Origin: a virus
Reading direction: 5' to 3' (one strand)
Virus record (IMG/VR): IMGVR_UViG_3300027608_000021
Span: 19,150 to 83,149 of that record
Length of the DNA: 64,000 nucleotides
The notes beneath the pieces are model-generated. The model was not told the DNA's origin. It did not search any database and saw only the letters and a list, made by a program, of their open reading frames with translations. A program made the position numbers and the translations under genes. Shown here piece after piece: positions 43,256 to 61,815 of the stretch; within the stretch, counting starts at the first letter, position 1, and every line of letters starts with the position of its first letter.

Positions 43256-44240
43256 TAGCCACCTCCTCAACTACAGGCTGGTTCTCATCGTCACCAGCGA
43301 ACGCATCCAAGAACAACTTGTGCACGACAGGACGATCCTCGCCGTTGATCTTATTGGTGAACGCAATCTCCACCGCAGCCATAATGCTGATCTCCGTTGA
43401 GAGCAGCGCAATGTCAATCGCACGGCGTGTACTTGCAGTCACGAACATTGAGAGCGGCTGTTGCGTAACCTTCTGGGTCTCTGTGCCATCCTCATTCTTG
43501 ATGGTCTCCAGTACAGGCTCGCCAAGACCAGCCGCACGGCGCACGCTGTTGAATACCTCAACGATGCGAGTCGCACGAGAGTGCTTGATCTTTCCAGCCC
43601 GAGCGATGACCGCTGCTTCCTTCTCAGGATTCTCTAGCCCGAGATACGCAACCTCTGCCACAATGAAGCGGTCAAGAGTTGCCTCGTTGAGAATGCGAGC
43701 ACCAGCGTACTGACCGCTGTCTGCAGGGTTCGCTGTAGCCACCAACATAAATGCTGGATGCGGCTCAATGAACTCTGCACCATCTGGCTTCTCATAGATA
43801 TTGAGTCGGTACTCTGTTGCCAAGAAATCGTGCAGTCGCATTAGCGTCCGCTCGTCGGCAGCGTTGATCTCGTCCAACACGAGGATGCCACCCTGACGCA
43901 AAGCATTAGGCAGCGCGCCATCACGCCACTCCACAGCGATGCCGTTCTTACCAGATACAGGGATCGGCATACCAATCAACTGATCCGTCGTCGTGCCTTC
44001 AGCCAGCGAGACAACATAGACAGGCAGCCCCAACTGATGCGCGAACCAACGCACAGCAGCGTTCTTGCCAGTACCAGTATGCCCACTCAGCAACACAGGT
44101 CGCTTGTGCTTGAACCCTAGAGCGAGAGCCGTAGCCTCCTCACCCTGAACCTCGTAATCCTCCGCAGCAGGGATCAAATGCTCCCCACCTGAAACCTTTG
44201 GCTTCTCCAACGAGATGCCCTGAATCTGAACTTCTGCCAT
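43248..44240 (-). CDS. MoxR/CobS-type AAA+ ATPase
   Basis: 330 residues. Walker A GHTGTGKN (53-60), Walker B ILVLDEINA (119-127), a sensor 1 ATANPAD stretch and LNEATLDRF fit MoxR-family ATPases, which nearly always pair with a VWA protein, here the next gene. GGAGGT precedes the ATG at 44240, after a type A repeat. It likely loads or remodels a protein with its VWA partner. Confidence 0.88.
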   Translation of the reverse strand: MAEVQIQGISLEKPKVSGGEHLIPAAEDYEVQGEEATALALGFKHKRPVLLSGHTGTGKNAAVRWFAHQLGLPVYVVSLAEGTTTDQLIGMPIPVSGKNGIAVEWRDGALPNALRQGGILVLDEINAADERTLMRLHDFLATEYRLNIYEKPDGAEFIEPHPAFMLVATANPADSGQYAGARILNEATLDRFIVAEVAYLGLENPEKEAAVIARAGKIKHSRATRIVEVFNSVRRAAGLGEPVLETIKNEDGTETQKVTQQPLSMFVTASTRRAIDIALLSTEISIMAAVEIAFTNKINGEDRPVVHKLFLDAFAGDDENQPVVEEVANA

Positions 44241-44270: not shown

Positions 44271-44296
44271 CCTCTAGCCGAAACCATTTCATAGAT
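44271..44296 (-). repeat. Type A repeat upstream of AAA+ gene
   Basis: Variant with CTATGAAATGG and GGCTAGAGG only; 31 bases before the MoxR-type start. Confidence 0.8.
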
Positions 44297-44299
44297 CTC

Positions 44300-44447
44300 C
44301 ATCCTTACTTGTTGCTGGTTTGTGAGGGGTGCACTCTTACTACAAAGTCCTCACCGACCAATCTTGAGGCATATGAACCAAAGGTTCGCCTCAGCAGAAG
44401 TGTGTCCGTTAGTAGCGTCTGCCACCTCGCTATTGGTGCGACCCCTT
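44300..44447. other. Non-coding or degraded stretch with strong hairpins
   Basis: No gene with a plausible start fits. Minus-strand stems include GAGGC-GAACC-TTT-GGTTC-GCCTC (with an internal bulge, around 44364-44392). One frame is open for about 59 codons without a start codon (ending VVRVHPSQTSNK), so it may be the remnant of a gene or a frameshifted extension of the small ORF beside it. Confidence 0.4.
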
Positions 44448-44597
44448 TTATTGGAGACCTTTCACCGAGAGCGGCGCATCTGGCTTATCTAGAATCCACC
44501 AGATACTATTGCTCAGGGTTACCACGAGTCCCAAAAGGATCGCACCCAGACAGAGAACCTTACGATTCTCTGGCGAGTGGGGTGTTCTAAGTCCCAC
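44448..44597 (-). CDS. Possible small membrane protein
   Basis: 49 codons from a GTG at 44597. One clear transmembrane helix (VLCLGAILLGLVVTLSNSI). No good ribosome site lies directly upstream; the GGAGA after the type A repeat belongs to a nearby 30-codon ORF in another frame. A 13-bp imperfect hairpin covers the start. Moderate to low confidence. Confidence 0.35.
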   Translation of the reverse strand: MGLRTPHSPENRKVLCLGAILLGLVVTLSNSIWWILDKPDAPLSVKGLQ

Positions 44598-44620
44598 TCA
44601 CCAGAGACCATATTGTCTCC

Positions 44621-44649
44621 TACCCTCTAGCCGAAAGTGTTTCACATAT
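44621..44649 (-). repeat. Type A repeat
   Basis: Between the HicA-like gene and the uncertain 44.3-44.6 kb unit; middle bases vary (ACACTTTCGGCT). Confidence 0.85.
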
Positions 44650-44678
44650 CCCTTTCGGTAAAGAGATTATAAATATTT

Positions 44679-44876
44679 CTAAATGTTTAGTCCGTATCTG
44701 CGAAGATCTCGCTTGAGATTCTGCACGGCTCGCCCATCGCTAGGCGTGAACGACGAGAACACCTTCACGCCAGTCGGGGAGACCCACGACAGATGCGTGT
44801 TCTTTCTCTGCTCCACGCGCCAGCCCTGAGCCACCGCGATCTCAAACAAATCCCTATAAACCTTAGGCACTTTCAT
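44679..44876 (-). CDS. HicA-like small protein
   Basis: 65 residues from the ATG at 44876, overlapping the upstream stop (ATGA). GWRVEQRKNTHLSWVSPTG followed by a hydrophobic strand and LKRDLRRYGL has the size and pattern of HicA-type double-stranded-RNA-binding-like toxins, with His in the strand as in HicA. No HicB antitoxin is adjacent, so a toxin role is doubtful. Confidence 0.5.
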   Translation of the reverse strand: MKVPKVYRDLFEIAVAQGWRVEQRKNTHLSWVSPTGVKVFSSFTPSDGRAVQNLKRDLRRYGLNI

Positions 44877-45013
44877 TTGATAGCCGTCCAAATGATTACG
44901 CCGAAAGTGATGAGCGCGCACACCACGATGGTGGCATCCTGCCGCTCTCGTGTCTTGCGAGCCTCCTTCACATAGTATGACTCAATGTTGCGAACCTTCT
45001 TGCGTGTCCTCAT
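44873..45013 (-). CDS. Small single-helix membrane protein
   Basis: 46 residues: a basic N-terminus (MRTRKKVRN) and one transmembrane helix near the C-terminus (TIVVCALITFGVIIWTAI). Both ends overlap neighbours by ATGA. Function unknown. Confidence 0.65.
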   Translation of the reverse strand: MRTRKKVRNIESYYVKEARKTRERQDATIVVCALITFGVIIWTAIK

Positions 45014-45375
45014 TCTCCACCTCCATTCTCCAAGTCCAAGTAGCGAGACTTCTTACCCACTACGAAATCTAGTTGCGTCTGCAACCTTTTTGCCTCGTCC
45101 AGTTTGAGACGGATCGGCATCAGGTCGTCAGCCAGATCCCGATTGTTCTGTGGGCTTGAGACCCAGATCGTGACGAGCGCATCCTGACCAAGTTCGTGCT
45201 GCTCGTCAAAGTCAGCATCAACCCACAGGGAAATCTGACCGACAACACCAACGAACGGATCGCTGTGTGTTGGTACTTCGTCCCCGAATGAGAACACATT
45301 CTTATCGTTCTCTTGTCGCTCAATAGTTGCGTGAACAGATTCCTGAATCACCAACGGAAAATCTTTCGCGTTCAT
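45010..45375 (-). CDS. Unknown acidic protein
   Basis: 121 residues from the ATG at 45375 (GGAGG 6 bases before). Beta-rich middle (VGVVGQISLWVDADFDEQHE) and a helical C-terminus; no family recognised. Confidence 0.65.
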   Translation of the reverse strand: MNAKDFPLVIQESVHATIERQENDKNVFSFGDEVPTHSDPFVGVVGQISLWVDADFDEQHELGQDALVTIWVSSPQNNRDLADDLMPIRLKLDEAKRLQTQLDFVVGKKSRYLDLENGGGE

Positions 45376-45377
45376 AC

Positions 45378-46133
45378 TCAACCTCCAATCCCCATAAAGC
45401 CTTCGTCATTCCAAAGGCGCATACCATTATCGTAATACTCCTTGCTGATCACCCGCTTAGGGTCGTCCTCCCAGAACGGATCAACCTCAATAGTATCGCC
45501 CTCGTCCTCAACGCTCCAGAACCCTTCGTTCGTGCATTCTCCTGCGATGAAAGTATTCTCGCCAATGAAGCCCATTCCCATCTCAGCGAACTTGATATGC
45601 ACCACAGCATCAGGGTACTTCGCCGACAGAGCCTCTACGATTCGCATCGGTGGAGACCACGCCGTATCAAAGTTCACGAACGCAGACTTGCCAGACTTGC
45701 CGATATGAACATCGTCTCCACCAACGCTCCACTTCGTGCCCCAGTTTGCAATGTTCCAGTTCCACCAGAACAGAGGATGCTCCGACACCTTGATTCCCAA
45801 ATGATCAGGACAACGCTCAACAGCAGAGCCAATCTCGCTGGCAAATGATCCGTCAATCTTGGAGTGATCCTTGAGTGGCGGCTTGCCATTGACTAGCCAC
45901 ACACCATTAGGAGTCTCGCCCACATATTCAGACTTGCACTCGCAGCCCACATAAGAGTGCTGCGACGGCTCGCCCTTATAAATCCGCTCATCCTCTGGGT
46001 CGCCAATCGGCGGCGGTACAATCTTGGCGAAGTCAAAGTCAGAGTGATCCGACTTGATCTCCCCAAGAATCTCCGCGATTCTCTCCTCGCTCTTTGCCGT
46101 GAGCGTGATCTCGTTGCCGCACCAGTTAGGCAT
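45378..46133 (-). CDS. DUF1281-like (YubB-type) protein
   Basis: 251 residues from the ATG at 46133 (TAATG). The start MPNWCGNEITLT and later WGTKWSVGGD and FDTAWSPPMRIVEALS are hallmarks of the DUF1281/YubB ferredoxin-like family common on phages and plasmids. Biochemical function unknown. Confidence 0.75.
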   Translation of the reverse strand: MPNWCGNEITLTAKSEERIAEILGEIKSDHSDFDFAKIVPPPIGDPEDERIYKGEPSQHSYVGCECKSEYVGETPNGVWLVNGKPPLKDHSKIDGSFASEIGSAVERCPDHLGIKVSEHPLFWWNWNIANWGTKWSVGGDDVHIGKSGKSAFVNFDTAWSPPMRIVEALSAKYPDAVVHIKFAEMGMGFIGENTFIAGECTNEGFWSVEDEGDTIEVDPFWEDDPKRVISKEYYDNGMRLWNDEGFMGIGG

Positions 46134-46336
46134 TACTCCCACTCCTTTCGCTTCTTGGCGTAGCGACTAGCCAACGCCACATCCACCTTATCGTAAACAA
46201 AGTACGCTACAACCAGCGCACCAAGACCAGCGAGACCTCCGACGATAAGACCGAGAGAGTTCCCGCCACTTAGCCCTGCGATAAACCCACCACCGAATAT
46301 AAACACCACCATTAGAAACTTCTCTGACTTGCTCAT
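46133..46336 (-). CDS. Small glycine-rich membrane protein
   Basis: 67 residues. Two transmembrane helices rich in Gly (VVFIFGGGFIAGLSGG and LIVGGLAGLGALVVAYFVY), then a basic tail (YAKKRKEWE). GGAGG precedes the start, with a type A repeat upstream. Confidence 0.65.
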   Translation of the reverse strand: MSKSEKFLMVVFIFGGGFIAGLSGGNSLGLIVGGLAGLGALVVAYFVYDKVDVALASRYAKKRKEWE

Positions 46337-46363
46337 ACTACCTCCTTCTATATATATCTATCT

Positions 46364-46390
46364 AACCTCTAGCCGAAACCATTTCACAGA
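46364..46390 (-). repeat. Type A repeat
   Basis: Upstream of the 46336-starting membrane protein and of the block 44679-46336, with no internal repeat between those five coupled genes. Confidence 0.9.
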
Positions 46391-46392
46391 GT

Positions 46393-46803
46393 CTATTCCC
46401 AAACATACGGCAAGTCGTTTGACTCGTGCCACCCAAACTTGCTGTAATAATCTGCGTCCTTGCGGAGCAGATTGCTACGATGCGACTCGTGGAAGTCGTC
46501 GCGTCCCAACCACGGCGGCACTACGACAGCCGTTTCGTAGTCGCGGTACGCCAGAATCTTGTCGCGGCAAGTGTCCTTGTACCCGCGCTTGATCCACTCG
46601 TCGCACATCGCTACGCCATAAACCACGAGGCAGTTCTCATACCCTCGCCACATCTTTGCAGCGGGGTGATTGACCCACCCTTTTGTCTCGCCCTTGAGAG
46701 CCTTGAGCAGTTGGAGCGTCTCCACTCGCTGCTTGCCTAGTCTCTGTCTGTCAAGAACCTGAGCAGACTTCACGAAGTCATTGTATGGCAGGAATGTTTG
46801 CAT
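46393..46803 (-). CDS. MSMEG_6728/pyrimidine-dimer glycosylase-like protein
   Basis: 136 residues from the ATG at 46803. MQTFLPYNDFVKSAQVLD, RLGKQRVETLQLLKAL and WVNHPAAKMWRGY closely follow the MSMEG_6728 family related to T4-type pyrimidine dimer DNA glycosylases. May repair or modify DNA; experimental function of the family is uncertain to me. Confidence 0.75.
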   Translation of the reverse strand: MQTFLPYNDFVKSAQVLDRQRLGKQRVETLQLLKALKGETKGWVNHPAAKMWRGYENCLVVYGVAMCDEWIKRGYKDTCRDKILAYRDYETAVVVPPWLGRDDFHESHRSNLLRKDADYYSKFGWHESNDLPYVWE

Positions 46804-47216
46804 CAGTCCCACCACCAGAGCACAGAGTCTCCGCGATCCTCAAACTCGTCGGCTCCCAACGCAGAGCCTCGCACGGATGCCTTCATCCGCTTGTATTCGT
46901 CTGCGCTGTATGCGTTCAGACCTTCTAGCGAAAGCCGTGCGTCCTCTCGCCCACAGCCAACCAAGTAGCCGTGATACTTCACCTCAATACCTTCCGCTTC
47001 TAGTCGCCCTGCTTCTTTGATCAGAGCAAGCGTGCCGATGAAGTTATTCCAAAGTTGGTAGTCGGTAAGAGCACCTCCTGCCAACAGAGCCTCCTCCATC
47101 TTATCCCACGGCACATCGCTGAACCGACGGAGACCGCCAGACCAGTCATCGTGCGTGAAGTACGGAGACAGAATCTGCTCTACCTGATCTACAATCTGCT
47201 GCTTCTCGTCAGTCAT
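46803..47216 (-). CDS. Unknown protein
   Basis: 137 residues. An N-terminal helical segment (QIVDQVEQILSPYF) and a Trp/Asp-rich end (GDSVLWWWD). Coupled to the genes on both sides by stop/start overlaps. No family recognised. Confidence 0.65.
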   Translation of the reverse strand: MTDEKQQIVDQVEQILSPYFTHDDWSGGLRRFSDVPWDKMEEALLAGGALTDYQLWNNFIGTLALIKEAGRLEAEGIEVKYHGYLVGCGREDARLSLEGLNAYSADEYKRMKASVRGSALGADEFEDRGDSVLWWWD

Positions 47217-47419
47217 TACTCCACCTCCTCATCTAAATCCTCAAACCCAGAGACAAGAGCCTCCCCGACAATCTGTCGCGGATCGCTATCGTAAGCCACA
47301 GGAACGGCTCGGTCAATAACCTTGTCGTCCTCCTGAACCACGATCACATCCAGCCCCTCAATATCGGTCGTCGCCTCTGCGACTAGACCACCACGAATCT
47401 GAACCACAATCACAGGCAT
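47216..47419 (-). CDS. Small acidic protein
   Basis: 67 residues, beta-rich start (MPVIVVQIRGGLV) and acidic end (FEDLDEEVE). GAGGAGG precedes the ATG after a type A repeat. Confidence 0.6.
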   Translation of the reverse strand: MPVIVVQIRGGLVAEATTDIEGLDVIVVQEDDKVIDRAVPVAYDSDPRQIVGEALVSGFEDLDEEVE

Positions 47420-47433
47420 ATCTACCTCCTCTC

Positions 47434-47462
47434 TACCCTCTAGCCGAAACTATTTCACAGAT
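47434..47462 (-). repeat. Type A repeat encoding a protein C-terminus
   Basis: The stop codon of 47450-47791 lies inside this copy; TCTGTGAAATAG encodes Ser-Val-Lys-stop. Confidence 0.9.
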
Positions 47463-47791
47463 GCTTCTTGCTCGCTTGGCACACACCCAACGCAGTACGG
47501 CTCACCCCTGTCGGTATCAAGTCGCCCTGTCTCTGGGTTGTACCAAACAATATCGTCCTCCACTACAACGCTGTCGCAGACCGCGCAGTTCTCAATGTCG
47601 TCAAACTTGTCCGCTCTACGATCCTCGCATCCGCGACAATAAATCATTGCCACACCAGACCAGTTCTTTGCGCTTACAAAGTATTCCTTGCCAACAAAGT
47701 CGTCTGCTAACTTCTCGTCGCATTGGTCGCACTTAGTCGGCTCAATGCTTTTGAGTATCTTTCTCCCTAGTTGCGGCGAAACTCTGCTCAT
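47450..47791 (-). CDS. Multi-CxxC zinc protein
   Basis: 113 residues with CDQCDE, YCRGCED, CAVCDS and YCVGCV, enough for two zinc sites. Its last three residues (SVK) are encoded by the intergenic repeat. Confidence 0.65.
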   Translation of the reverse strand: MSRVSPQLGRKILKSIEPTKCDQCDEKLADDFVGKEYFVSAKNWSGVAMIYCRGCEDRRADKFDDIENCAVCDSVVVEDDIVWYNPETGRLDTDRGEPYCVGCVPSEQEASVK

Positions 47792-47793
47792 TG

Positions 47794-48000
47794 CTACTCC
47801 TCCTCGTAGCCGTCAAACCACGCGCCATACTTATCGGTGTGTGCTTTGCCAGCCTCGCTAGTTGCCGTGCTGCTGCTCGTATCAGGATCATTACACCAAT
47901 GCTGAGCCTGTTCTAGAGTCTTACCTCTAGCCAGTACCCGCGTAGGATACTCGTCGCTGAAATACATTCGTACTACCCGATACTTCTTGCCGTCAGACAT
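47794..48000 (-). CDS. Small phage protein with DPxTSSxTxTS motif
   Basis: 68 residues from the ATG at 48000 (GGAGGAGACGA before it). YRVVRMYF, LEQAQHWCNDPDTSSSTATS and GAWFDGYEEE match a small uncharacterised family I remember from actinobacteriophages. Function unknown, but it is a useful host-range clue. Confidence 0.7.
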   Translation of the reverse strand: MSDGKKYRVVRMYFSDEYPTRVLARGKTLEQAQHWCNDPDTSSSTATSEAGKAHTDKYGAWFDGYEEE

Positions 48001-48217
48001 TCGTCTCCTCCTTATCACCCGCTAGGGTAATCCAGTCAATCTTTCCTGCCCCGAACAGGATTGCCTTTGGGTCAATATTGTATGACTGAGCAACATACTG
48101 AGCCATACCTTCCTCCGATCCGCAGTCGCTGCATACCATCGTCTTGTTATCGTATCGGGATAGTGCCCCTCTGATTGCGTCAAACTCCTTGCCACAGCCA
48201 TTGCATTCCTGAATCAT
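47993..48217 (-). CDS. Small zinc-ribbon protein
   Basis: 74 residues, CNGCGKEFDA and MVCSDCGSEEG. Overlaps the next gene start by 8 bases. Unknown role. Confidence 0.65.
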   Translation of the reverse strand: MIQECNGCGKEFDAIRGALSRYDNKTMVCSDCGSEEGMAQYVAQSYNIDPKAILFGAGKIDWITLAGDKEETNV

Positions 48218-48231
48218 TTCTGCACCTCCTT

Positions 48232-48261
48232 CTACTCTCTAGCCGAAATCATTTCACAGAT
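48232..48261 (-). repeat. Type A repeat encoding a protein C-terminus
   Basis: The stop of 48249-48614 is inside it (again Ser-Val-Lys before the stop). Confidence 0.9.
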
Positions 48262-48614
48262 TCCTTCTCAACGCTTTTGTTTGACCCGCATTGGTGGCAG
48301 CGGTAGGTCTTGCCATCCCACTTGCCGACCTCTGGCTGAACCTCTACGCCTCCTGTGTCGGTCGTAGCGAATCCGTCCTTGTGGACATCGTTGCCACACT
48401 CACACACGAGGAAGTCGCCCTCGTACCTGATGGCGTGCTCCTGATGGTCGTAGGCTCGTCCTACCTGAACCGCGTGGATATCCTCCTCCCACCACTCTGA
48501 GACTTCCATATCCTGTGCGATTGCGACAGCCTTGTCCATCGCCTCCGCTGCGGTCTTTGCCTCTACTCTGATCTCAACATCCGCAACCTTGCGAACCTCT
48601 ACTTCCCAAATCAT
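48249..48614 (-). CDS. Unknown protein with zinc-ribbon end
   Basis: 121 residues. An N-terminal alpha/beta domain (WEVEVRKVADVEIRVEAKTA) then CECGNDVH and CHQCGSNK. Ends ESVK, encoded by the repeat. Confidence 0.65.
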   Translation of the reverse strand: MIWEVEVRKVADVEIRVEAKTAAEAMDKAVAIAQDMEVSEWWEEDIHAVQVGRAYDHQEHAIRYEGDFLVCECGNDVHKDGFATTDTGGVEVQPEVGKWDGKTYRCHQCGSNKSVEKESVK

Positions 48615-48886
48615 TAGTTCACCTCCTCGTCAATGAAACCTTCTAGATGAAACTCGTCCACGATTATAAATGCGGGAACCTCCGTGCCGTACTTCTTGTG
48701 AACCACCCCATCAGGCATCGGAATGTCCTCAAAGTTGTCGCCGCTGCGGTATGCCTGAATCGCCTTCTTTGCTACCTCAATCATAAAGCGTGGCGGTGCG
48801 GGGTACAGGTTGCTCGTCATATGCCACTCCAATGCGACATCCTCGCTCGCTGCCTCGCGCATCCCCATCAGTCCTGCGTATCCCAT
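48614..48886 (-). CDS. Unknown small protein
   Basis: 90 residues; GGAGGTCAT precedes the ATG. Middle PPRFMIEVAKKAIQAYRSG is helical, end acidic. No family recognised. Confidence 0.6.
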   Translation of the reverse strand: MGYAGLMGMREAASEDVALEWHMTSNLYPAPPRFMIEVAKKAIQAYRSGDNFEDIPMPDGVVHKKYGTEVPAFIIVDEFHLEGFIDEEVN

Positions 48887-48900
48887 ATGACCTCCTTCCT

Positions 48901-48926
48901 ACTCTCTAGCCGAAACTATTACATAC
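48901..48926 (-). repeat. Type A repeat
   Basis: Variant TATGTAATAG; overlaps the end of the unit that begins at 49230. Confidence 0.85.
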
Positions 48927-48930
48927 TTGA

Positions 48931-49230
48931 TCAGTTGTAGTCGGTGCTCCAAATAACTTCTGAGATTCCTCCGTCGTGAAGCATCCACTCAACTTCTGTG
49001 AGTATCCTCCCCTTGACTTCCTTTGTTGCAAACTCCTCCTCACAATCCGAGCACCAGAGAGACTCTACTTCTGTGCCGTCCACAAAGATGTCGTCTCGTG
49101 GCTCCTCAACCCAGAACGCTCTACCCGCGTCGTCAATAGGCTTCAGGTTTGCCAGTACCTTTGCCGTGATCGTGATCCCCGAAGCCTCATCACCCGCTAC
49201 CTTAGCCCGATCACAAGTGTGCTTGTACAT
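48931..49230 (-). CDS. Unknown acidic protein
   Basis: 99 residues from the ATG at 49230 (AGGAGG 6 bases before). One CSDC pair near the middle and a Trp-rich C-terminus. No family recognised. Confidence 0.6.
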   Translation of the reverse strand: MYKHTCDRAKVAGDEASGITITAKVLANLKPIDDAGRAFWVEEPRDDIFVDGTEVESLWCSDCEEEFATKEVKGRILTEVEWMLHDGGISEVIWSTDYN

Positions 49231-49242
49231 AGACACCTCCTT

Positions 49243-49272
49243 CTAGCCTCTAGCCGAAACTATTTCACAGAT
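49243..49272 (-). repeat. Type A repeat
   Basis: Continues into a GAAGGAGG ribosome site for the 49230 start. Confidence 0.9.
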
Positions 49273-49274
49273 CT

Positions 49275-49541
49275 CTACTTCGTGGGAAACTTGGCTGAGA
49301 GCCACTCGTAGGCTTCCTTAGCCTCCTCGTCCCCTTGTGCCATTGCGTTTCCCAGATGCCCTGCAATGTTGATGACTGATCCGATCAAAGCACGAGCATC
49401 CTCGCGCTTCTTGCGACCCGCAGCCAAGAACACCACATTATCTGCAAAGAGTGCAGCCATCGCCGCGTACCCCTGCTTCGTGGGAGTCAGGTCAATGAGA
49501 CCATTCTCCTGTTTGATTGCCTCGTCCTTCATCACGCTCAT
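49275..49541 (-). CDS. Unknown helical protein
   Basis: 88 residues from the ATG at 49541. Ala-rich helices (MAALFADNVVFLAAGRKKRE). No family recognised. Confidence 0.6.
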   Translation of the reverse strand: MSVMKDEAIKQENGLIDLTPTKQGYAAMAALFADNVVFLAAGRKKREDARALIGSVINIAGHLGNAMAQGDEEAKEAYEWLSAKFPTK

Positions 49542-49554
49542 ACTTACCTCCTTC

Positions 49555-49582
49555 ACACTCTAGCCGAAACTATTTCACAGAT
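49555..49582 (-). repeat. Type A repeat
   Basis: GGCTAGAGTG variant, directly before GAAGGAGG for 49541. Confidence 0.9.
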
Positions 49583-49583
49583 C

Positions 49584-49814
49584 CTATCGCTTGCCAAGAG
49601 CCTCGTCGGTCAGGTTCATCCCCATCTGCGTATGAATCTTGAGCCGATCCGTGTCGCCGTGCTTGTCGTACTCCTCCAATGCCAGACCATACGCTACCGC
49701 TGCGTCCACGAACGCACGCGCCGCCCTGCCGTCCTGCGTGGTCAGCGAGTTCAGAAACGCGAAGTCCCGCCGACCTTCCAAGAATCCTCTAAGCATCCCA
49801 TTGTCTGCTGCCAT
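49584..49814 (-). CDS. Unknown small protein
   Basis: 76 residues, helical (RAARAFVDAAVAYGLALEEY). GGAGG precedes its ATG at 49814. Confidence 0.6.
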   Translation of the reverse strand: MAADNGMLRGFLEGRRDFAFLNSLTTQDGRAARAFVDAAVAYGLALEEYDKHGDTDRLKIHTQMGMNLTDEALGKR

Positions 49815-49830
49815 AGTCGCACCTCCTTCT

Positions 49831-49858
49831 ACTCTCTAGCCGAAATCATTTCACAGAT
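49831..49858 (-). repeat. Type A repeat
   Basis: Followed by GAAGGAGG for the gene at 49814. A G-run/C-run hairpin (about 49866-49896) lies on its upstream side and may end the 49908-50327 transcript. Confidence 0.9.
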
Positions 49859-49907
49859 TCCTTGCCGTTGGGGGGATCAGTCGCCCGACCCCCCCCCACC
49901 GATACCC

Positions 49908-50327
49908 CTAGTCCATCCTTGATCGGAACCCTACGCCCTTGTAGCCCTTGCTCGTGAGGTAGCGTGCCACCGCTCCTGCTGCCGCCTCCTTGCGAGACAT
50001 AGACTGACCGAATCCTGAGACCCAGAGATCTACCCCGCCGTCGTAAGAGTTCTTGTGAGCAGAGAATACTCCACCCCTAGCGTCCCCATAGTTCCTGAGG
50101 ATCGCCTTGCCAAGAGCCGTATTGAGCGGCACATTGACCCACGCGAATCCACACGCTCCCCCTGAGACATCCCAGCGTTGCCCAGTTGCGGAGTCCACCA
50201 CTACCATCGGTGTAGGGCTGTCTCCCAGTCCTGCGGCGCAACCCTGAGCGATTGCCTCAATGAGATCCTGCTCAATGACGAGCCGCTGAGCCTTCGCTGC
50301 TCTAATCTTATCCTTCACATAACCCAT
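49908..50327 (-). CDS. Unknown protein
   Basis: 139 residues from the ATG at 50327 (GGGAGG 7 bases before). A helical N-terminus, then a compact Gly-rich domain (SGGACGFAWVNVPLNTALGK) and RYLTSKGYKGVGF. Recalls small actinophage proteins of unknown function. Confidence 0.65.
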   Translation of the reverse strand: MGYVKDKIRAAKAQRLVIEQDLIEAIAQGCAAGLGDSPTPMVVVDSATGQRWDVSGGACGFAWVNVPLNTALGKAILRNYGDARGGVFSAHKNSYDGGVDLWVSGFGQSMSRKEAAAGAVARYLTSKGYKGVGFRSRMD

Positions 50328-50370
50328 ACCATTACCTCCCACTATCAGGGGATCAGATTGTCTGACCCTC

Positions 50371-50400
50371 CTACCCTCTAGCCGACATCATTTCACAGAT
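50371..50400 (-). repeat. Type A repeat with 5' leader hairpin
   Basis: Followed by a stem-loop at about 50350-50367 and then the ribosome site of 50327. Confidence 0.9.
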
Positions 50401-50402
50401 CC

Positions 50403-50576
50403 TTACTTCTCCAATCGTACTGGAGTTTCGGTGGACTGATCAAAGCCAACCTTCGCACCAAGCCATACGAAATCCTCGTGATCGCGCACGAGTTTCGCGC
50501 ACTTCGCCTGATCGTTAGCAGCCGCTGCTGCCTCCATCTCCTGCTCAATCTGATCCAGTTTCTCCTGAATGGTCAT
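50403..50576 (-). CDS. Small helical protein
   Basis: 57 residues from the ATG at 50576 (AGGAGGTAGGG before). A heptad-rich helix (LDQIEQEMEAAAAANDQ). Unknown role. Confidence 0.6.
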   Translation of the reverse strand: MTIQEKLDQIEQEMEAAAAANDQAKCAKLVRDHEDFVWLGAKVGFDQSTETPVRLEK

Positions 50577-50610
50577 CCCTACCTCCTGCTCTGAGGGGAT
50601 CATCCCCTCC

Positions 50611-50639
50611 TACCCTCTAGCCGACATCATTTCACATAT
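50611..50639 (-). repeat. Type A repeat with 5' leader hairpin
   Basis: Leader hairpin GAGGGGATGATCCCCTC at 50593-50609, then AGGAGG and the 50576 start. Confidence 0.9.
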
Positions 50640-50716
50640 GTTTAGCATAAAATATTAGTATTATATTACACATATATACCCCAGAAAATCGCCCGAAATA
50701 CCCTATTTATATCAAC

Positions 50717-50890
50717 TCACAGGGGAGTCTGCTTCCCTCTCCTAGCCGATTCTGCTTCCTGCTCTCTACGCTTCTGGCGTGCTTTCTCCATCAGTTCATT
50801 ATGGAGTCGGAGCGTGCCCTTCCCACTCATCACCATACGGAATGAGCGTGAATCCACCTTATTGTCTCTATTGCTCTTGATGTAGTCCAT
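50717..50890 (-). CDS. Small basic protein
   Basis: 57 residues from the ATG at 50890 (GGAGGATAGACTG before). Very basic (ARQKRREQEAESARRGKQ), helical; possible nucleic-acid binder. The stretch 50640-50716 after it is A/T-rich and holds a degenerate repeat copy near 50661-50676. Confidence 0.65.
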   Translation of the reverse strand: MDYIKSNRDNKVDSRSFRMVMSGKGTLRLHNELMEKARQKRREQEAESARRGKQTPL

Positions 50891-50903
50891 CAGTCTATCC
50901 TCC

Positions 50904-50932
50904 TACTCTCTAGCCGAGATCATTACATAGAT
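50904..50932 (-). repeat. Type A repeat
   Basis: Variant ATCTATGTAATGATCTC; upstream of 50890. Confidence 0.9.
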
Positions 50933-50999
50933 GACCTCAGTCCATACCCCTCAATACTAGGCGACGCTCGCCGCGTGCTTATTTGTTGTGCTGCCCTCT

Positions 51000-51027
51000 A
51001 CCCTCTAGCCGAGAACATTACACATTT
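51000..51027 (-). repeat. Type A repeat without an evident gene
   Basis: The 70 bases between it and the next repeat contain a GGCGA-GCG-TCGCC hairpin but no ORF. Confidence 0.85.
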
Positions 51028-51056
51028 GCCCAGTCTTGGCAAGCCTTTCCCACCAG

Positions 51057-51208
51057 AGCCAAAAGCATTTCACATATCCCACCCGCGTGAATGGTACATC
51101 TGTTCTATTCGCCACTAGCAAGGGGGTTATCCACATATGTGAAACAATCCTGTGAAACATTACACATATACCACCCCCCTGAAACGGAGCCATAATCATT
51201 TCACATAT
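51057..51208. repeat. Cluster of type B and inverted repeat copies
   Basis: Type B copies at 51057-51077 and 51188-51208 flank an inverted copy at 51134-51149 and a near-palindrome at 51151-51170 (TGTG...CACA). The 51030-51287 stretch has no gene. Confidence 0.8.
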
Positions 51209-51222
51209 AAGTATAAGAGAAT

Positions 51223-51254
51223 GGACAGAGAGGGGTAGGAGTCCCTCCCTGTCC
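51223..51254 (-). terminator. Terminator-like hairpin after 51288-51611
   Basis: Stem GGACAG-GAGGG with CCC-TC-CTGTCC on the minus strand, followed by ATTCTCTTAT. A moderately T-rich tail. Confidence 0.6.
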
Positions 51255-51287
51255 TAGTGTCTTTGTGCTTCTCCTACTTCGGCGGAC

Positions 51288-51611
51288 TTAGCGGACGATT
51301 GCGGAGACCGCTCCTCGTGGCAACCCTACGCCCTGCCGCACCACGCTCTGGTGTCGCCCTGTCGTGTGGCTGTACTTCTCCGCTGGCACAACCCACTCGC
51401 CCCGCTTCGTGTACCACGCGATTGGTGTGCTGTACGAGTAGACTACATACGAGACTTCTCCCGCTGTGATGTCTGCCAGCCACAACTCCTGCGCCCTGCC
51501 GTAGATGATCCCTGATCCGTTAGGGCTGCGCGTTGCCCAGATGCTGTTGCCTCTGAACTCTGCACGCTGCGCCACTTTACCAATGGCATCGTGCCGTGTC
51601 GTGTATCCCAT
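51288..51611 (-). CDS. Small actinophage-type protein
   Basis: 107 residues from the ATG at 51611 (GGAGGTCAA before). MGYTTRHDAIGKVAQRAEFR, SYVVYSYSTPIAWYT and a late TTGRHQSVVR motif match a small family I associate with actinobacteriophages. Function unknown. Confidence 0.7.
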   Translation of the reverse strand: MGYTTRHDAIGKVAQRAEFRGNSIWATRSPNGSGIIYGRAQELWLADITAGEVSYVVYSYSTPIAWYTKRGEWVVPAEKYSHTTGRHQSVVRQGVGLPRGAVSAIVR

Positions 51612-51646
51612 TTGACCTCCTACTATCTGAGGGGAACTTCCCCTCC

Positions 51647-51675
51647 TACCCTCTAGCCGAGAACATTTCACATAT
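51647..51675 (-). repeat. Type A repeat with leader hairpin
   Basis: Leader hairpin at 51629-51645 (GAGGGGAAGTTCCCCTC), then AGTAGGAGG. A type B copy lies upstream at 51691-51711. Confidence 0.9.
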
Positions 51676-51715
51676 CCTTATGACAGCCAGAGCCAACATC
51701 ATTTCACATATATGG

Positions 51716-51757
51716 AGAAAAAGCAAGGGGGGAGCACCCCGTCGGATACTCCCCCCC
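51716..51757 (-). terminator. Intrinsic terminator of the 51.8-51.95 kb unit
   Basis: GGGGGGAG pairs with CTCCCCCC on the minus strand and is followed by TTGCTTTTTCTCC. Confidence 0.7.
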
Positions 51758-51950
51758 TGTATCGGGTTGATTCCTACACCCCCCGTCGGGGATGTGCTCC
51801 TCGCCACCCTACCGCTCCCAGATTTACAGAGTCTGCCCTAGCGGTCATCGCTCCACCTGCATCTCCAATACCCGCATTTGAGGCTGCGGCATTTTGATCG
51901 CTCGTCCGATCGCCTCACCTTAGGGAGAGAGTTCCTAGGATCTCTCCTCC
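51757..51950 (-). ncRNA. Candidate structured non-coding RNA cassette
   Basis: Bounded by a type A repeat (51951-51979) and a terminator, but the longest good ORFs are 24-26 codons. On the minus strand consecutive stems can form: GGAGAGA/CTCTCTCC (51924-51947), GATCG/CGATC, CCGCA/TGCGG, CCGCT/AGCGG enclosing CAGA/TCTG, and CCCC/GGGG. Spacing fits a regulatory RNA of about 190-240 bases. Tiny peptides such as the 24-codon ORF after GGTGGAGCG cannot be excluded. Confidence 0.45.
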
Positions 51951-51979
51951 TACCCTCTAGCCGTAATCATTTCACATAT
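51951..51979 (-). repeat. Type A repeat before the RNA cassette
   Basis: Same form as those preceding protein genes; a type B copy is at 52008-52028. Confidence 0.9.
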
Positions 51980-52032
51980 GGATAGAACAGATGTTCTATT
52001 TGGCCAGAGCCACAATCATTTCACATATAATA

Positions 52033-52067
52033 TAAAAGAAAAGGGGAGGGCTGCCCACCCTCCCCTT
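52033..52067 (-). terminator. Intrinsic terminator after 52071-52310
   Basis: AAGGGGAGGG/CCCTCCCCTT stem (52041-52050 with 52058-52067) followed by TTCTTTTA on the minus strand. Confidence 0.8.
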
Positions 52068-52070
52068 CCC

Positions 52071-52310
52071 TTAGACCTTCTTGCTGATTGTTCTAATGGC
52101 TGCCAGATCCCAGAAGCCATCACCTCGTGCCTGATCATTGAGGAGGATCCTCCCCGAGATCAACGCGCCCTTGTTCTTGTACTCCCCTGCGGCTGCTGCT
52201 GCGGCGTACCGCATCACCTCCGCACTTGGTGCAATATTGGTGAGTGTACGCTTCGCGTGTCCACCCTTCCCGAACTGCGCCCAACGCTTCAGACCCCAGA
52301 CCTTACGCAT
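52071..52310 (-). CDS. Small basic protein
   Basis: 79 residues; GGAGGGTCAAG precedes the ATG. A basic N-terminus (KVWGLKRWAQFGKGGHAKR), an Ala-run (YAAAAAAGEY) and a compact end. No family recognised. Confidence 0.65.
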   Translation of the reverse strand: MRKVWGLKRWAQFGKGGHAKRTLTNIAPSAEVMRYAAAAAAGEYKNKGALISGRILLNDQARGDGFWDLAAIRTISKKV

Positions 52311-52347
52311 CTTGACCCTCCTACTAGTGGTGGCGTATCTCGCCTCC

Positions 52348-52375
52348 TACCCTCTAGCCGAGATCGTTTCACATT
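52348..52375 (-). repeat. Type A repeat with leader hairpin
   Basis: Leader hairpin GGCG-AGATA-CGCC at 52332-52344, then CTAGTAGGAGG before 52310. Confidence 0.9.
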
Positions 52376-52392
52376 AGATAACTAATAAAGAG

Positions 52393-52498
52393 AGCCAGAA
52401 CCATTTCACATATGCTACTAGAATCATTACACATATAAAATAATAAAACGCCGATATGTGAAATGATTATAAAAATACATCCCTAATGTGAAATGATA
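52393..52498. repeat. Two type B copies facing two inverted copies
   Basis: 52393-52413 and 52421-52436 read leftward; 52454-52468 and 52484-52498 read rightward. The only place with a symmetric convergent array. Confidence 0.8.
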
Positions 52499-52513
52499 GT
52501 GGCACGGGGGTTC

Positions 52514-52537
52514 GGGAGGAGGCTCCTGCCTCCCCCC
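52514..52537 (-). terminator. GC hairpin after 52549-52848
   Basis: GGAGGC-AGGA-GCCTCC on the minus strand with extra G/C pairs; no T-run. Confidence 0.5.
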
Positions 52538-52548
52538 TCCCCTCCCTC

Positions 52549-52848
52549 TTAGAAGTGCGGATCCATATACTCTCGCGCTTCTCCGAGTGTGAGTCCGTAC
52601 ACGCTTGCTCCTGGAACGTAGAACTCCGTGCCTCGCTTTGTATCCTTCAGTCTGAACTTCATCTCTCGCCCGTTGAGTCCGCCGCTTGTAATGTATCGCA
52701 CCACGACCTCTTTTGTGAGCCGCCCGTTGCGCTTGGCTGCCGCTTCTGTTGCGAAGGGTACGATCCTCACAACCTCTGCCGCGTATGAGTCCGATCCGCA
52801 ATGGATCGTTGCTGGCATCCCCAGCGCGAGTCCTTTGTACCAGTCCAT
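52549..52848 (-). CDS. Unknown beta-rich protein
   Basis: 99 residues; GGAGGGTCAG precedes the ATG. The start MDWYKGLALGMPATIHCGSD recalls small actinophage proteins; FRLKDTKRGTEFYVPG in the middle. Function unknown. Confidence 0.65.
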   Translation of the reverse strand: MDWYKGLALGMPATIHCGSDSYAAEVVRIVPFATEAAAKRNGRLTKEVVVRYITSGGLNGREMKFRLKDTKRGTEFYVPGASVYGLTLGEAREYMDPHF

Positions 52849-52879
52849 CTGACCCTCCTACTCTGAGGGGAACTGCCCC

Positions 52880-52908
52880 TCACCCTCTAGCCGCAATCAT
52901 TACATATA
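52880..52908 (-). repeat. Type A repeat with leader hairpin
   Basis: Leader hairpin GAGGGGCAGTTCCCCTC at 52865-52881, then GTAGGAGG. Confidence 0.85.
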
Positions 52909-52914
52909 TAGCGG

Positions 52915-53109
52915 AGCCACAAGTATTTCACATATACGCCACTAGTTGAGGGTATATTCTTTGATTGTGCCACTAGTTATGTGAAATAGTCTCATATTTC
53001 GTGCGTGCCAACATCATTTCACATATACTAGTCAAAACAAATAAATCATTTCACATATTGCCAGACGCTGCCAAGTTTCGCCCAAATGTGGCACGATCAT
53101 TTCACATAT
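52915..53109. repeat. Dense repeat array in a gene-free gap
   Basis: Type B copies at 52915-52935, 53006-53026, 53041-53058 and 53090-53109, plus an inverted copy at 52978-52990. No ORF lies in the 52850-53145 gap. Confidence 0.8.
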
Positions 53110-53143
53110 GATAGGGGAGGGTGATTGTCCACCCTCCCCTATC
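53110..53143 (-). terminator. Perfect 14-bp hairpin after 53146-53484
   Basis: Stem 53110-53123 with 53130-53143, loop GACAAT on the minus strand, immediately followed by a type B repeat. No T-run. Confidence 0.6.
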
Positions 53144-53145
53144 CC

Positions 53146-53484
53146 CTAGATCGTGATCGTCTGACCCTTTGCCAGATTGTAGATCGCCATCTGGCGATTC
53201 TCCCTCCCGAGTCTCATAGCATCCCGCTTCGTGCGGACGATTGTCGTAGGATCCAGATGGATTGTATCGCCATCCACCCACGCTCCCAGATGCCGAGTCC
53301 CGAACCGATACCAGATGAGGAACAATGCCTGACGGATTGTCGTCTCCGTTGCCGTGATCGGGAGCCTGATTGCCGTCTCCGTCGTGGCTCCTACGGCATA
53401 CCCCCGCTTCGGGGTGATCGGGGTGAGGGTGCGACTCTTGATCGTCGCTCCGCCATCCCGCAGGATTCTATCGCGTAGATTCAT
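53146..53484 (-). CDS. Unknown protein with DP(T/x)-R-AxRLG motif
   Basis: 112 residues. TPITPKRGYAVGATTETAI, HLGAWVDGDTIHLDPTTIV and LGRENRQMAIYNLAKGQ match a small family seen in actinophage accessory regions. Function unknown. Confidence 0.65.
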   Translation of the reverse strand: MNLRDRILRDGGATIKSRTLTPITPKRGYAVGATTETAIRLPITATETTIRQALFLIWYRFGTRHLGAWVDGDTIHLDPTTIVRTKRDAMRLGRENRQMAIYNLAKGQTITI

Positions 53485-53521
53485 CTCCTGATCCTCCTAC
53501 TAGTGGAGTGCTCTTGCCCTC

Positions 53522-53588
53522 CTACCCTCTAGCCGAGATCGTTTCACATAGCATAAAAAATATGCGGAGCCACAATCATTTCACATAT
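53522..53588 (-). repeat. Type B + type A tandem
   Basis: Type B at 53568-53588 and type A at 53522-53550 lie in the same orientation, 17 bases apart, before the 53484 gene; the clearest example of the paired arrangement. Confidence 0.9.
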
Positions 53589-53596
53589 AACACAAT

Positions 53597-53632
53597 AAAA
53601 AAGGCAGGGAGGTACGCTGACCCCCCTGCCTT
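53597..53632 (-). terminator. Intrinsic terminator after 53637-53801
   Basis: AAGGCAGGG-GG stem with CC-CCCTGCCTT, followed by TTTTTTATT on the minus strand. Confidence 0.8.
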
Positions 53633-53636
53633 CTTG

Positions 53637-53801
53637 TTAGATTCTGCCGTCTCGTCGTGCCTTCTCGTATAGTGCCGCACGACTCTCCAAGTAGTCCTGA
53701 CGATCCTGATACTGCTCAATCTTTTGGATGATTAGCATCCCTGTGAGTACGAATAGTGCACCACCTGTGAACGCCGTCAAGATTGCCGAGATCTCTACCA
53801 T
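53637..53801 (-). CDS. Small membrane protein with coiled-coil tail
   Basis: 54 residues from the ATG at 53801 (GGAGGAAACGGCA before). One N-terminal transmembrane helix (ILTAFTGGALFVLTGMLII) then a charged helix (KIEQYQDRQDYLESRAAL). Unknown role. Confidence 0.65.
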   Translation of the reverse strand: MVEISAILTAFTGGALFVLTGMLIIQKIEQYQDRQDYLESRAALYEKARRDGRI

Positions 53802-53838
53802 TGCCGTTTCCTCCTACTAGTGGAGAGCACTTCTCTCC

Positions 53839-53867
53839 TACCCTCTAGCCGAGATCATTTCACATAT
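53839..53867 (-). repeat. Type A repeat with leader hairpin
   Basis: Leader hairpin GGAGAG-AAGTG-CTCTCC at 53822-53838, then CTAGTAGGAGG. Confidence 0.9.
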
Positions 53868-53908
53868 CCGCGTGATGGAATACCTTAAAAGCAAGCCACT
53901 AGAAGAAG

Positions 53909-53984
53909 CATATGTGAAACAATCTCAGACTCATAATCATTACACATATAAGATTGTGTGCGGTGCCAGAATCATTTCACATAT
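53909..53984. repeat. Inverted copy plus two type B copies
   Basis: Inverted copy 53909-53923; type B at 53931-53949 and 53964-53984, the right-most members of the family. Confidence 0.8.
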
Positions 53985-53992
53985 GAATGAGC

Positions 53993-54036
53993 AAAAAAAA
54001 AGGGAGACCAGGGCAGCCTCGCCGCCCTGATCTCCC
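53993..54036 (-). terminator. Strong intrinsic terminator after 54059-54688
   Basis: A 13-bp stem (54024-54036 with 54002-54014, one G-T) is followed by nine T on the minus strand. Confidence 0.9.
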
Positions 54037-54058
54037 TCTTGCCGTAGCAGCCTCGCTG

Positions 54059-54688
54059 CTAGTCTCGGCTGGAGTGTGCACCGCCTTCGGTGCGTGCCTT
54101 CGCACGATTCACCGCTACTCGCACCGCGTTAGCGGTGGTGCGGATCCCTCGTGCGCGCAGGTTCGCAGCGACCTTCGCAGCGTACCCGTAGTGTGCACCG
54201 CCGACTGCCTCCAGTTCGGCGAGAATCGCAGCATCATTCGCTGCGCCTCGTGCACCGTTAGCAGCACCGCGTGCCGCCAGTTCTGCACCGTGTGCAGCGA
54301 CCGTGTGAGAGTGTCGCACCGCGACCACCGCTGCGACCAGTGCGCTACGCTCCGCATCCGCACCGCGCACCGCGTGCGCATTGTCTGCGACCTGATCGGC
54401 CAGCACAGATCCCAGATCCGTCATCTCGCCATCCTTGCCGCTCACCGCTTGCGAGAGATAGGCGAAGCGCACCGCTGCGCCATCCCCTAGCCGCTCCTCA
54501 CGGTTGGCATTGTACGCAGCGCGCACCGCTGCAGCGACCGTAGCCGCAGGATCAGTCGCGAGAATCATGAGCGCATCCTGCGCCATATCCTCACGATCGG
54601 CATACCCTCTAAGGCTGCCAGTATGGAGCGCGGCAACGGCTGCCGATACCTCGCGGATAATCTCCGCCGTGATCCTCTTGTGAGACAT
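54059..54688 (-). CDS. Alanine-rich, possibly sigma-factor-like protein
   Basis: 209 residues from the ATG at 54688 (GGGAG 8 bases before; ATG 54694 is too close). YADREDMAQDALMILATDP (about 29-47) resembles sigma region 2 of ECF-type factors. The C-terminal NLRARGIRTTANAVRVAVNR could be a helix-turn-helix like region 4. The middle is extremely Ala-rich and GC-rich, unlike its neighbours, suggesting transfer. First gene of the leftward block with its own terminator. The sigma assignment is tentative; other HTH regulators are possible. Confidence 0.45.
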   Translation of the reverse strand: MSHKRITAEIIREVSAAVAALHTGSLRGYADREDMAQDALMILATDPAATVAAAVRAAYNANREERLGDGAAVRFAYLSQAVSGKDGEMTDLGSVLADQVADNAHAVRGADAERSALVAAVVAVRHSHTVAAHGAELAARGAANGARGAANDAAILAELEAVGGAHYGYAAKVAANLRARGIRTTANAVRVAVNRAKARTEGGAHSSRD

Positions 54689-54763
54689 ATTCATGTCTCC
54701 CTTCTCCCTCGTCTATAGGCAGCGAGGGGCTGCAGCAGATCGGAGACCCGACCTGATGCCATC

Positions 54764-54829
54764 AGTATAGCCGAAAAGCAAGAAGCGCGTTTTCGTGAAT
54801 ATTCATCAGGTTTCGTGCTTAATATTCAT
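54764..54829 (-). promoter_or_regulatory. Candidate leftward promoter with direct repeats
   Basis: TATACT on the minus strand (54769-54764) has no matching -35. Instead, two direct repeats of TTTCGTG plus AATATTCAT (plus strand 54791-54806 and 54811-54829) sit where an activator would bind. The leader down to 54688 contains GC-rich stems. Confidence 0.45.
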
Positions 54830-55238
54830 AAAAAAACGAGAATATGCACCCCCTCCGCACCGCTCCACGACAGGCGTGCGGGCACCTATTAAGTACCTAG
54901 AGGAAATATATACAGAATCTGAAATATTATATAAGTAAGAACTTATGTTGGAAGCACAAAGACAGCATCGCTTGACGATGCACACGCAAAGACACCTAAT
55001 CTAACCCAGGTCGACCGTGGGGAAACTCTACGAAACGCTCTCTGGAACTTGACTCCTACCCCTCCTCCCCTAAGAAAATAACCCAGGCTAACCTGGTATA
55101 TGTTATAAAATATAAGTGGTACTATTATATGAGACCAAAATACCCTCAAAAAGCGCGTATAGAGTGAAGGGTAAATTTCTTAACAGTAAGATAATCTAAC
55201 CCAGTTAACCCAGCTAATGAGTATATGGGAGTATATCC
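54830..55238. other. Divergent intergenic region between leftward block and second head module
   Basis: No gene found. It is A/T-rich with TAACCCAG motifs at about 55002, 55079, 55197 and 55206 and an inverted repeat CCAGG-CTAA-CCTGG at 55083-55096. It separates two promoters and could also hold the packaging or replication start, though no iterons are clear. Confidence 0.5.
54972..55000 (+). promoter_or_regulatory. Candidate rightward promoter for the head module
   Basis: TTGACG (54972-54977), 17 bases, CCTAAT (54995-55000). The -35 lies inside a palindrome GCATCG-CTTGA-CGATGC (54965-54981), a possible operator. Confidence 0.5.
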
Positions 55239-55709
55239 ATGAGACATCCAGATTGGTTTTCCAGTCTACCATTTAAGGTGGTATGCGGGAAAGGCATGAC
55301 AAAGGATTATCTCAAGAGGTATAAGCCAGCTCTGCTTATCATGGCGAGGGCGGTCACAGACCATAAAATTTTTTTGCGCCAGGTCAGCCTGCATTACCAC
55401 GCTGACCAGATGTGCCGCGACGCGGGGTTCGCCGAGGACTGGGTTCACAAACTTACCCTCTGCTCCGCCGACATTGACACGGCTCTCCACGAACTAGCAC
55501 ACGTCGCCACCCGATCGGAACACTCCAAGCGGTGGGCGAAGTACCTGTTCCGACTGCATAAGCAGTATATGTCACCGATTCAGTGCCGACGCTGGGACTT
55601 GCGGGTTGCCCGTGACTATCCAGTAGCCGTGCGCTACTATAAGCGGCGATACAAGCGGGACCCAAGCCCGCTTCGCAAGCGACCAAGAAAAGAGACACCA
55701 GATGTCTGA
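55239..55709 (+). CDS. Zincin-like metalloprotease, second copy (complete)
   Basis: 156 residues from ATG 55239 (GGGAG upstream). HELAHVATRSEHSKRW repeats the HExxH...H pattern of the first copy. It shows the missing N-terminus: a basic segment (MTKDYLKRYKPALLIMARAV) before the zinc domain. Overlaps TerS by 8 bases. Confidence 0.72.
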   Translation: MRHPDWFSSLPFKVVCGKGMTKDYLKRYKPALLIMARAVTDHKIFLRQVSLHYHADQMCRDAGFAEDWVHKLTLCSADIDTALHELAHVATRSEHSKRWAKYLFRLHKQYMSPIQCRRWDLRVARDYPVAVRYYKRRYKRDPSPLRKRPRKETPDV

Positions 55710-57579: not shown

Positions 57580-57608
57580 CACCAACACATATAGACAGAA
57601 GGTGCAGG

Positions 57609-60892: not shown

Positions 60893-60913
60893 TAATAATT
60901 AAGGAGACTTTCA

Positions 60914-61789: not shown

Positions 61790-61815
61790 TTTTTTAGCGT
61801 GAACTAGGTGCTGCT

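Follow-up and report, generated by a model that had tools for sequence, protein, structure and literature searches.

The stretch analysed here (the window, 64 kb) is part of an IMG/VR record of 83,149 bp (IMGVR_UViG_3300027608_000021). Between 44.3 and 54.0 kb it holds a region of small leftward genes punctuated by an array of short oriented repeats, which occur as two kinds of copy (type a and type b). The array is headed by the gene of a sigma-like protein at 54,059-54,694, hereafter the head gene. Unless the record or another contig is named, positions are those of the window. The features of the array are:

44,276-53,984, minus strand: array of about 36-38 repeat copies, located by pattern and weight matrix
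53,835-53,867, minus strand: example of type a, core ATATGTGAAATGATCTCGGCT plus AGAGGGTAGGAG, then a 5' hairpin, a second Shine-Dalgarno sequence and ATG
53,867, 53,551, 52,909, 52,376, 51,979, 51,675, 51,027, 50,932, 50,639 and 50,400, minus strand: starts of the first ten type-a cores
49,858, 49,582, 49,272, 48,928, 48,261, 47,462, 46,391, 44,649 and 44,296, minus strand: starts of the other nine type-a cores
53,568-53,588, minus strand: example of type b, core then CCGC with no leader, 37 bp upstream of type-a 53,551
53,984, 53,949, 53,588, 53,109, 53,026, 52,935, 52,436, 52,413, 52,028, 51,711, 51,208 and 51,077, minus strand: type-b copies
52,454-52,504, plus strand: two inverted type-b copies, directly past the end of the gene at 52,549-52,848
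51,135, 52,977 and 53,910, plus strand: other inverted type-b copies
51,985-51,996, no strand assigned: LexA-like box GAACAGATGTTC, flanked by a type-b and a type-a element

Based on the pattern given in the original prediction and allowing up to three mismatches, 30 matches were found where dinucleotide shuffles gave 0.03, which establishes the repeat as real; 29 of them were on the minus strand and all fell within 44,276-53,984. A weight matrix, iterated and run over the whole window, identified 36 sites in the range 44,296-53,984 and none outside the array in the 64 kb. With 31 of these sites on the minus strand and five on the plus strand, the single dominant orientation claimed earlier was borne out. 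The earlier count of about 38 copies is approached when one or two weaker copies, for example that at 53,056 (minus strand), are added to the 36 of the matrix, while the count of 19 extended copies was exact, since 19 minus-strand copies run on into AGAGGGTAGGAGG or a close variant. The statement that the repeat stands between nearly all transcription units needs a correction: it is not found before every gene, the operon-internal 44,679-46,142 and the head gene being without a site.

Type a and type b are distinct elements with a preferred spacing. The 19 type-a copies are fused to a leader and stand just before genes or RNA genes; two of them extend 13 bp into the final codons of the preceding gene, and all others lie outside the listed genes. 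The 17 type-b copies (12 minus, five plus) are shorter, carry no leader tail and lie in intergenic DNA. Of 57 pairs, 34 showed a distance of 26-28 bp between type b and type a, and minor clusters lay near 36, 48 and 55 bp; such a preference points to DNA-bound factors. Strict helical phasing of 10.5 bp is not claimed, the best-fitting period differing between groups of phages. LexA-like boxes (GAAC-N4-GTTC) were located 6-14 bp before some type-a cores, several of them between type b and type a. Boxes of the form GAACannTGTTC occur at 51,985 in the window, at 14,000, 14,160 and 16,905 in contig L001 and at 84, 244, 1,564 and 2,009 in contig G001. Their sequence suggests SOS control, and they presumably hint at a host with a LexA of the Gram-positive type.

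Five strong intrinsic terminators on the minus strand stand directly before sites:

53,998-54,040, minus strand: strong intrinsic terminator which closes the sigma-like gene and precedes the array
53,598-53,635, minus strand: intrinsic terminator immediately before the pair 53,588/53,551
52,036-52,072, minus strand: intrinsic terminator immediately before the pair 52,028/51,979
51,724-51,759, minus strand: intrinsic terminator that ends the first non-coding RNA and precedes the pair 51,711/51,675
51,223-51,254, minus strand: intrinsic terminator before the sites at 51,208 and following

Genes behind terminators need promoters, and the repeat is the sole recurrent element at these places, which argues for the repeat as a promoter. 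Promoters of the sigma-70 type showed no excess in the array region (8 against 8.8 in shuffles). The repeat is a recurrent intergenic motif, it lies in the sense of transcription and it is unlike the host-type consensus, as is characteristic of phage-specific promoter systems of the phiEco32 type. Leaders of the long class folded better than shuffles, with a mean z of -1.2 to -1.95 per phage, compared with about -0.4 to 0 for the flanks of type b. Strong stems most often began 8-9 nt past the core (26 of 53 type-a against 7 of 36 type-b elements). Taken together, leader folding and stem positions suggest a transcription start about 7-9 nt after the core. In the short-leader class the type-a tail carries GGAGG directly before the start codon, and in long-leader genes the hairpin is followed by a second Shine-Dalgarno sequence.

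The same gene layout was found with other repeats in related phages. Positions 1-27,885 of the record belong to a second, related phage and are another version of record 57,209-83,149; the copy with the repeat described above is named A and the other version B. The two copies are about 86% identical in the structural part and 75-82% in most of the early part. The record (G000, 83,149 bp) amounts to 1.5 genome lengths from two sister phages, with an overlap of 86% identity (window 1-8,750 against 55,320-64,000), and it is either an assembly chimera or a real tandem. Further contigs were collected by terminase searches. One of them, 3300044970_001263, is a complete sister genome of the B type with 57,186 bp and an exact terminal repeat of 127 bp; its genome length of about 57.06 kb may be set against the 1.5-genome record. 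Three more distant contigs (L011, L012 and L013) have terminases of 77-78% identity.

The early region of B has the genes of A in largely the same order and a different repeat, GTATGTTAGGGTTTAGGGTATATGGTAGGAGG before genes and GTGTGTTAGGGTCTAGGGTCAGG between genes. In the distant contigs type a reads AAGCCCGTAATGGTCTGGGTTGATAGTGG (L011), AAGCCCGTAATGATGTCGGTGGATAGTGG (L013) and CCCGTAATGGTTGGTGTATAGAG (L012), and each of the three also carries a type b of GTGTGTAATG or ATGTGTAATG. The leader tail is ATATGGTAGGAGG in B and GATAGTGGGAGG in L011, compared with that given above for A. At a threshold of 14 bits the matrices of A and B gave zero cross-hits: the A matrix matched at 36 sites in A and nowhere in B, in the sister genome or in contig L009, while the B matrix found 43 sites in B, 44 in the sister genome and none in A. 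In the sister genome, one strand carries 40 of the 42 pattern matches, none of which falls outside the early region. Thirteen A genes have both a type-a site and a B orthologue, and for 12 of them the orthologue is preceded by a B-type site; among nine A genes without a site, no B orthologue has one (Fisher p = 2e-5). Between A and the complete sister genome the slots agreed for 12 of 12 genes with a site and for eight of nine without. The agreement of slots and the zero cross-hits indicate that the positions of the sites were kept and the sequence was replaced at every one of them.

Among INPHARED phage records the array region had no nucleotide match, the sigma-like protein had no match and the terminase matched only distantly, so that no cultured relative could be used for comparison. 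Bacterial genomes scanned with a terminase profile gave no match. No such array was seen in terminase relatives at 46-52% identity or in contig L028 (tRNA-rich phages), and searches with another early protein and with a profile of the sigma-like family yielded no new lineages. In a related terminase contig, L014 (1-4,630), dense GC-rich repeats beginning CAGCCCGTAACGG adjoin a tyrosine recombinase gene; these were set aside as a different thing.

Two type-a elements precede structured RNAs rather than genes:

51,722-51,958, minus strand: first conserved structured RNA, directly downstream of type-a 51,979, present in the six phages of the group and in the unrelated contig L058
44,300-44,628, minus strand: second conserved structured RNA, directly downstream of type-a 44,649, folding z-score -6.75
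L001 15,380-15,602, L043 1,195-1,426 and L058 911-1,039: the first RNA elsewhere; also in L011, L012 and L013

The first RNA, found in all six phages, is about 180-235 nt long, with a CCTAGGA hairpin and a GACGAGCGA core, and 12 of its 47 predicted pairs show two-sided changes. In L058, an unrelated phage contig of 90.8 kb, a promoter of the TTGACA type with an 18-bp spacer occupies the type-a slot before the RNA homologue. The second RNA is about 330 nt long, lies upstream of a MoxR-like ATPase gene and has counterparts at L001 6,500-6,844 and L041 12,640-12,910. Neither RNA has conserved open frames and neither matched Rfam; searches for tRNA, tmRNA and Rfam families were empty or not meaningful. 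Downstream of the last array site, the stretch 41,072-44,240 (minus strand) encodes a CobS/CobT-like pair, a MoxR/CobS-like AAA ATPase and then a von Willebrand factor A protein.

The candidate for the factor reading the sites lies at the start of the leftward genes:

54,059-54,694, minus strand: gene of the candidate reader, a sigma-like protein of 211 amino acids; first leftward gene, with no site of its own
54,700-55,238, minus strand: non-coding region upstream of the sigma-like gene with TATAAT-like sequences, partly conserved between phages with different repeats

In each of the six phages this gene heads the array, and in none does it carry an array site. Its counterpart in B is found at record 17,829-18,473. 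The proteins of A and B are about 42% identical, compared with 93% for the terminase, and three sequence groups of the head gene match three groups of the motif. Structural proteins of A are up to 98% identical to those of the B-type sister, so the type of motif tracks the early region and the head gene rather than the structural genes. Upstream of the head gene, A and B share a strongly conserved part of the non-coding DNA, which holds the TATAAT-like stretches, as expected if the host polymerase reads it, and 54,700-55,238 is a candidate for a host-read early promoter region. Within the conserved region CTGGGTTAGATTA is repeated (54,700-55,240, minus strand). The protein family has a DxEDxxQE stretch, which we take to resemble sigma region 2.2, a 'DGLTIGE.IAD' stretch, which presumably corresponds to the segment preceding region 4, and at the C-terminus a pair of helices that includes VRxxxxRAxxR. 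Among the 50 PDB matches listed by a Foldseek search with the second of two AlphaFold models, both of low confidence, about 29 were sigma chains; a few viral sigma factors were also retrieved, and every one of these hits had an E value above 0.1.

The most probable explanation, on sequence grounds, is that the array of about 36-38 copies consists of phage-specific promoters, and for this the likelihood is high. Of the roles named in the original prediction it is the promoter that gains support, from the terminators upstream of sites, the lack of a host-promoter excess, the sites before non-coding RNAs and the TTGACA-type replacement at the RNA homologue; a regulator-binding array may hold for type b. 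That the promoters are read by the 54,059-54,694 protein as a sigma factor seems somewhat favoured. In the following scheme it is inferred that the sites act as promoters, where transcription starts, which protein is the reader, in what order the genes are expressed and what type b does. Type-a elements would be the promoters, one before nearly every early transcription unit, with transcription starting most likely about 7-9 nt past the 21-bp core. The mRNA would open either with a short hairpin, after which comes a second Shine-Dalgarno sequence, or with the GGAGG leader itself. The reader would most likely be the host core RNA polymerase, redirected by the very diverged sigma-like protein, which is probably made first, from the conserved host-type promoter region, its gene heading the array. 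Type b, which shares the core and is without the downstream TAGAG/TATATGG part, is probably an auxiliary site for the same or a partner factor, placed preferentially 26-28 bp upstream of type a. Sister phages would have different repeats in the same slots because one trans-acting factor reads all sites, so that factor and sites diverge together.

A number of results weigh against this scheme. The agreement between reader and motif is based on three groups of related phages, and several other early proteins are as diverged as the candidate. The assignment of the head-gene protein as a sigma factor is weak: sequence searches of Pfam, PHROG and PDB gave no match; profile comparison (hhalign) with E. 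coli sigma factors and phiEco32 gp36 was not significant, the best alignment lying mostly on region 2.2; the two AlphaFold models had mean pLDDT (predicted local distance difference test) values of 58 and 57; and Foldseek with the first of these low-confidence models gave no enrichment of sigma factors. With regard to the promoters, a simple hairpin or stem score alone failed to separate type a from type b, and by inspection no conserved -35 element was seen at the usual distance from type-a sites.

As promoters or sites close to promoters, the repeats could instead be recognised by the host sigma factor with the help of a DNA-binding activator from the phage, either the 54,059-54,694 product or a different protein, and not by a phage sigma factor; we consider this rather unlikely. 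The weak sigma likeness of the candidate would suit an activator, as would the type-b sites, which lack the downstream part and, with their preferred spacing, resemble plain binding sites. However, the sites come without a conserved host-type -35/-10 pair, and the type-a part nearest the start also varies between phages, a variation that one would not expect a host sigma factor to accept. A helix-turn-helix protein encoded at 32,045-32,497 could be such an activator, but it is 78% identical in the complete sister phage with the other motif, which argues against it as the reader, although the window copy is not assignable with certainty to A or B. Of the two readers proposed originally, the 54,059-54,688 product is the better candidate by its position and its divergence in step with the motif, and the 32,045-32,497 product is disfavoured.

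An operator array of the kind found in cluster A mycobacteriophages, in which a repressor on many oriented sites stops transcription, is improbable. Multiple oriented sites with a group-specific consensus that co-varies with a trans factor would fit it, and the nearby LexA-like boxes hint at regulation. The array sites are nevertheless in one arm only and fused to gene leaders, their distance from start codons varying little; the units are already parted by terminators, so that promoters are required there, and most stoperators lie away from promoters (PMC6550527). A translation-start or mRNA element like the start-associated sequence (SAS) of cluster K, with the tail GGCTAGAGGGTAGGAGG as an extended ribosome-binding site, would account for GGAGG directly before start codons in the short-leader class, but this role, also raised originally, is very improbable because type-a elements precede non-coding RNAs, long-leader genes have their second Shine-Dalgarno sequence and type-b copies precede no gene.

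If the phage-sigma reading is right, at least three matched sets of factor and promoter (TATGTGAAATGAT..GGCTAGAG, TGTTAGGGTTTAGGGTATATGG and AAGCCCGTAATGG..GGGTTGATAG) occur in a common gene layout, and the rewriting of a whole regulon is directly readable and testable. It would be a natural experiment in which a transcription factor co-evolves with its whole regulon between phages with 93% identical terminases. Tentatively, the head-gene family may be a new phage sigma family invisible to profiles, with a specificity that turns over fast and about 20 promoters plus a similar number of auxiliary sites rewritten in concert. Such phages would be a possible source of orthogonal factor/promoter pairs, and would offer two structured phage RNAs without an Rfam family as well as a sigma-like family, very diverged, to be solved.

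Several known systems may be compared with the array. In T7-like phages a short conserved promoter with a purine-rich start stands before many units and is read by a single-subunit phage RNA polymerase. The likeness lies in the short conserved promoter before many transcription units and in its purine-rich start; no gene for a single-subunit RNA polymerase was noticed among the genes inspected, in a search that was not exhaustive.

The resemblance to SAS, extended SAS (ESAS) and stoperators noted in the original prediction holds for the architecture and not for the sequences, which are unrelated. SAS is a 13-bp sequence, GGGATAGGAGCCC, and ESAS consists of 17-bp inverted repeats with SigA-type -35 and -10 hexamers, thought to hold promoters (PMC3203893, PMC11373665). 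As in SAS/ESAS, many early genes are preceded by paired elements, with one member closest to the start codon and the other further upstream, and as in ESAS the consensus of the upstream part is specific to the subcluster. The leader tails of A, B and L011 differ from SAS, no host-type hexamer pair occurs above chance, the upstream element mostly repeats the same core in direct orientation and is not a 17-bp inverted repeat with a SigA promoter, and sister phages differ in the entire element. In cluster A mycobacteriophages stoperators block elongation; they share with the array many oriented sites and a consensus co-varying with one DNA-binding phage protein (PMC6550527). Stoperators are recognised by the immunity repressor, and the helix-turn-helix protein at 32,045-32,497 has 78% identity to its counterpart in a phage with another motif. 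A stoperator-like spread over the genome, mostly off promoters, was not seen: unlike stoperators, the array sites are in one arm, fused to leaders and placed after terminators, being confined to 44.3-54.0 kb in the window and, for pattern matches, to the early region in the sister genome.

By analogy, the array would work most like the phage-sigma systems of phiEco32 and 7-11. In these a phage sigma factor (gp36 in phiEco32) redirects the host polymerase to short conserved phage promoters, the consensus differs between related phages and early genes use host-type promoters (PMC4331800). The promoter motifs TAATGTATA (phiEco32) and TGTAATGTTATA (7-11) resemble the TGTAATG / GAAATGAT part of the array core (PMC4331800). 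The sigma gene of phiEco32 and 7-11 is recognisable, whereas the candidate of the array matches no profile. Those phages have about ten or fewer sites, serving long operons and late genes, while the array would provide about 20 promoters for single small genes or short operons, and only in the array is an auxiliary element paired with many promoters and are leaders attached.

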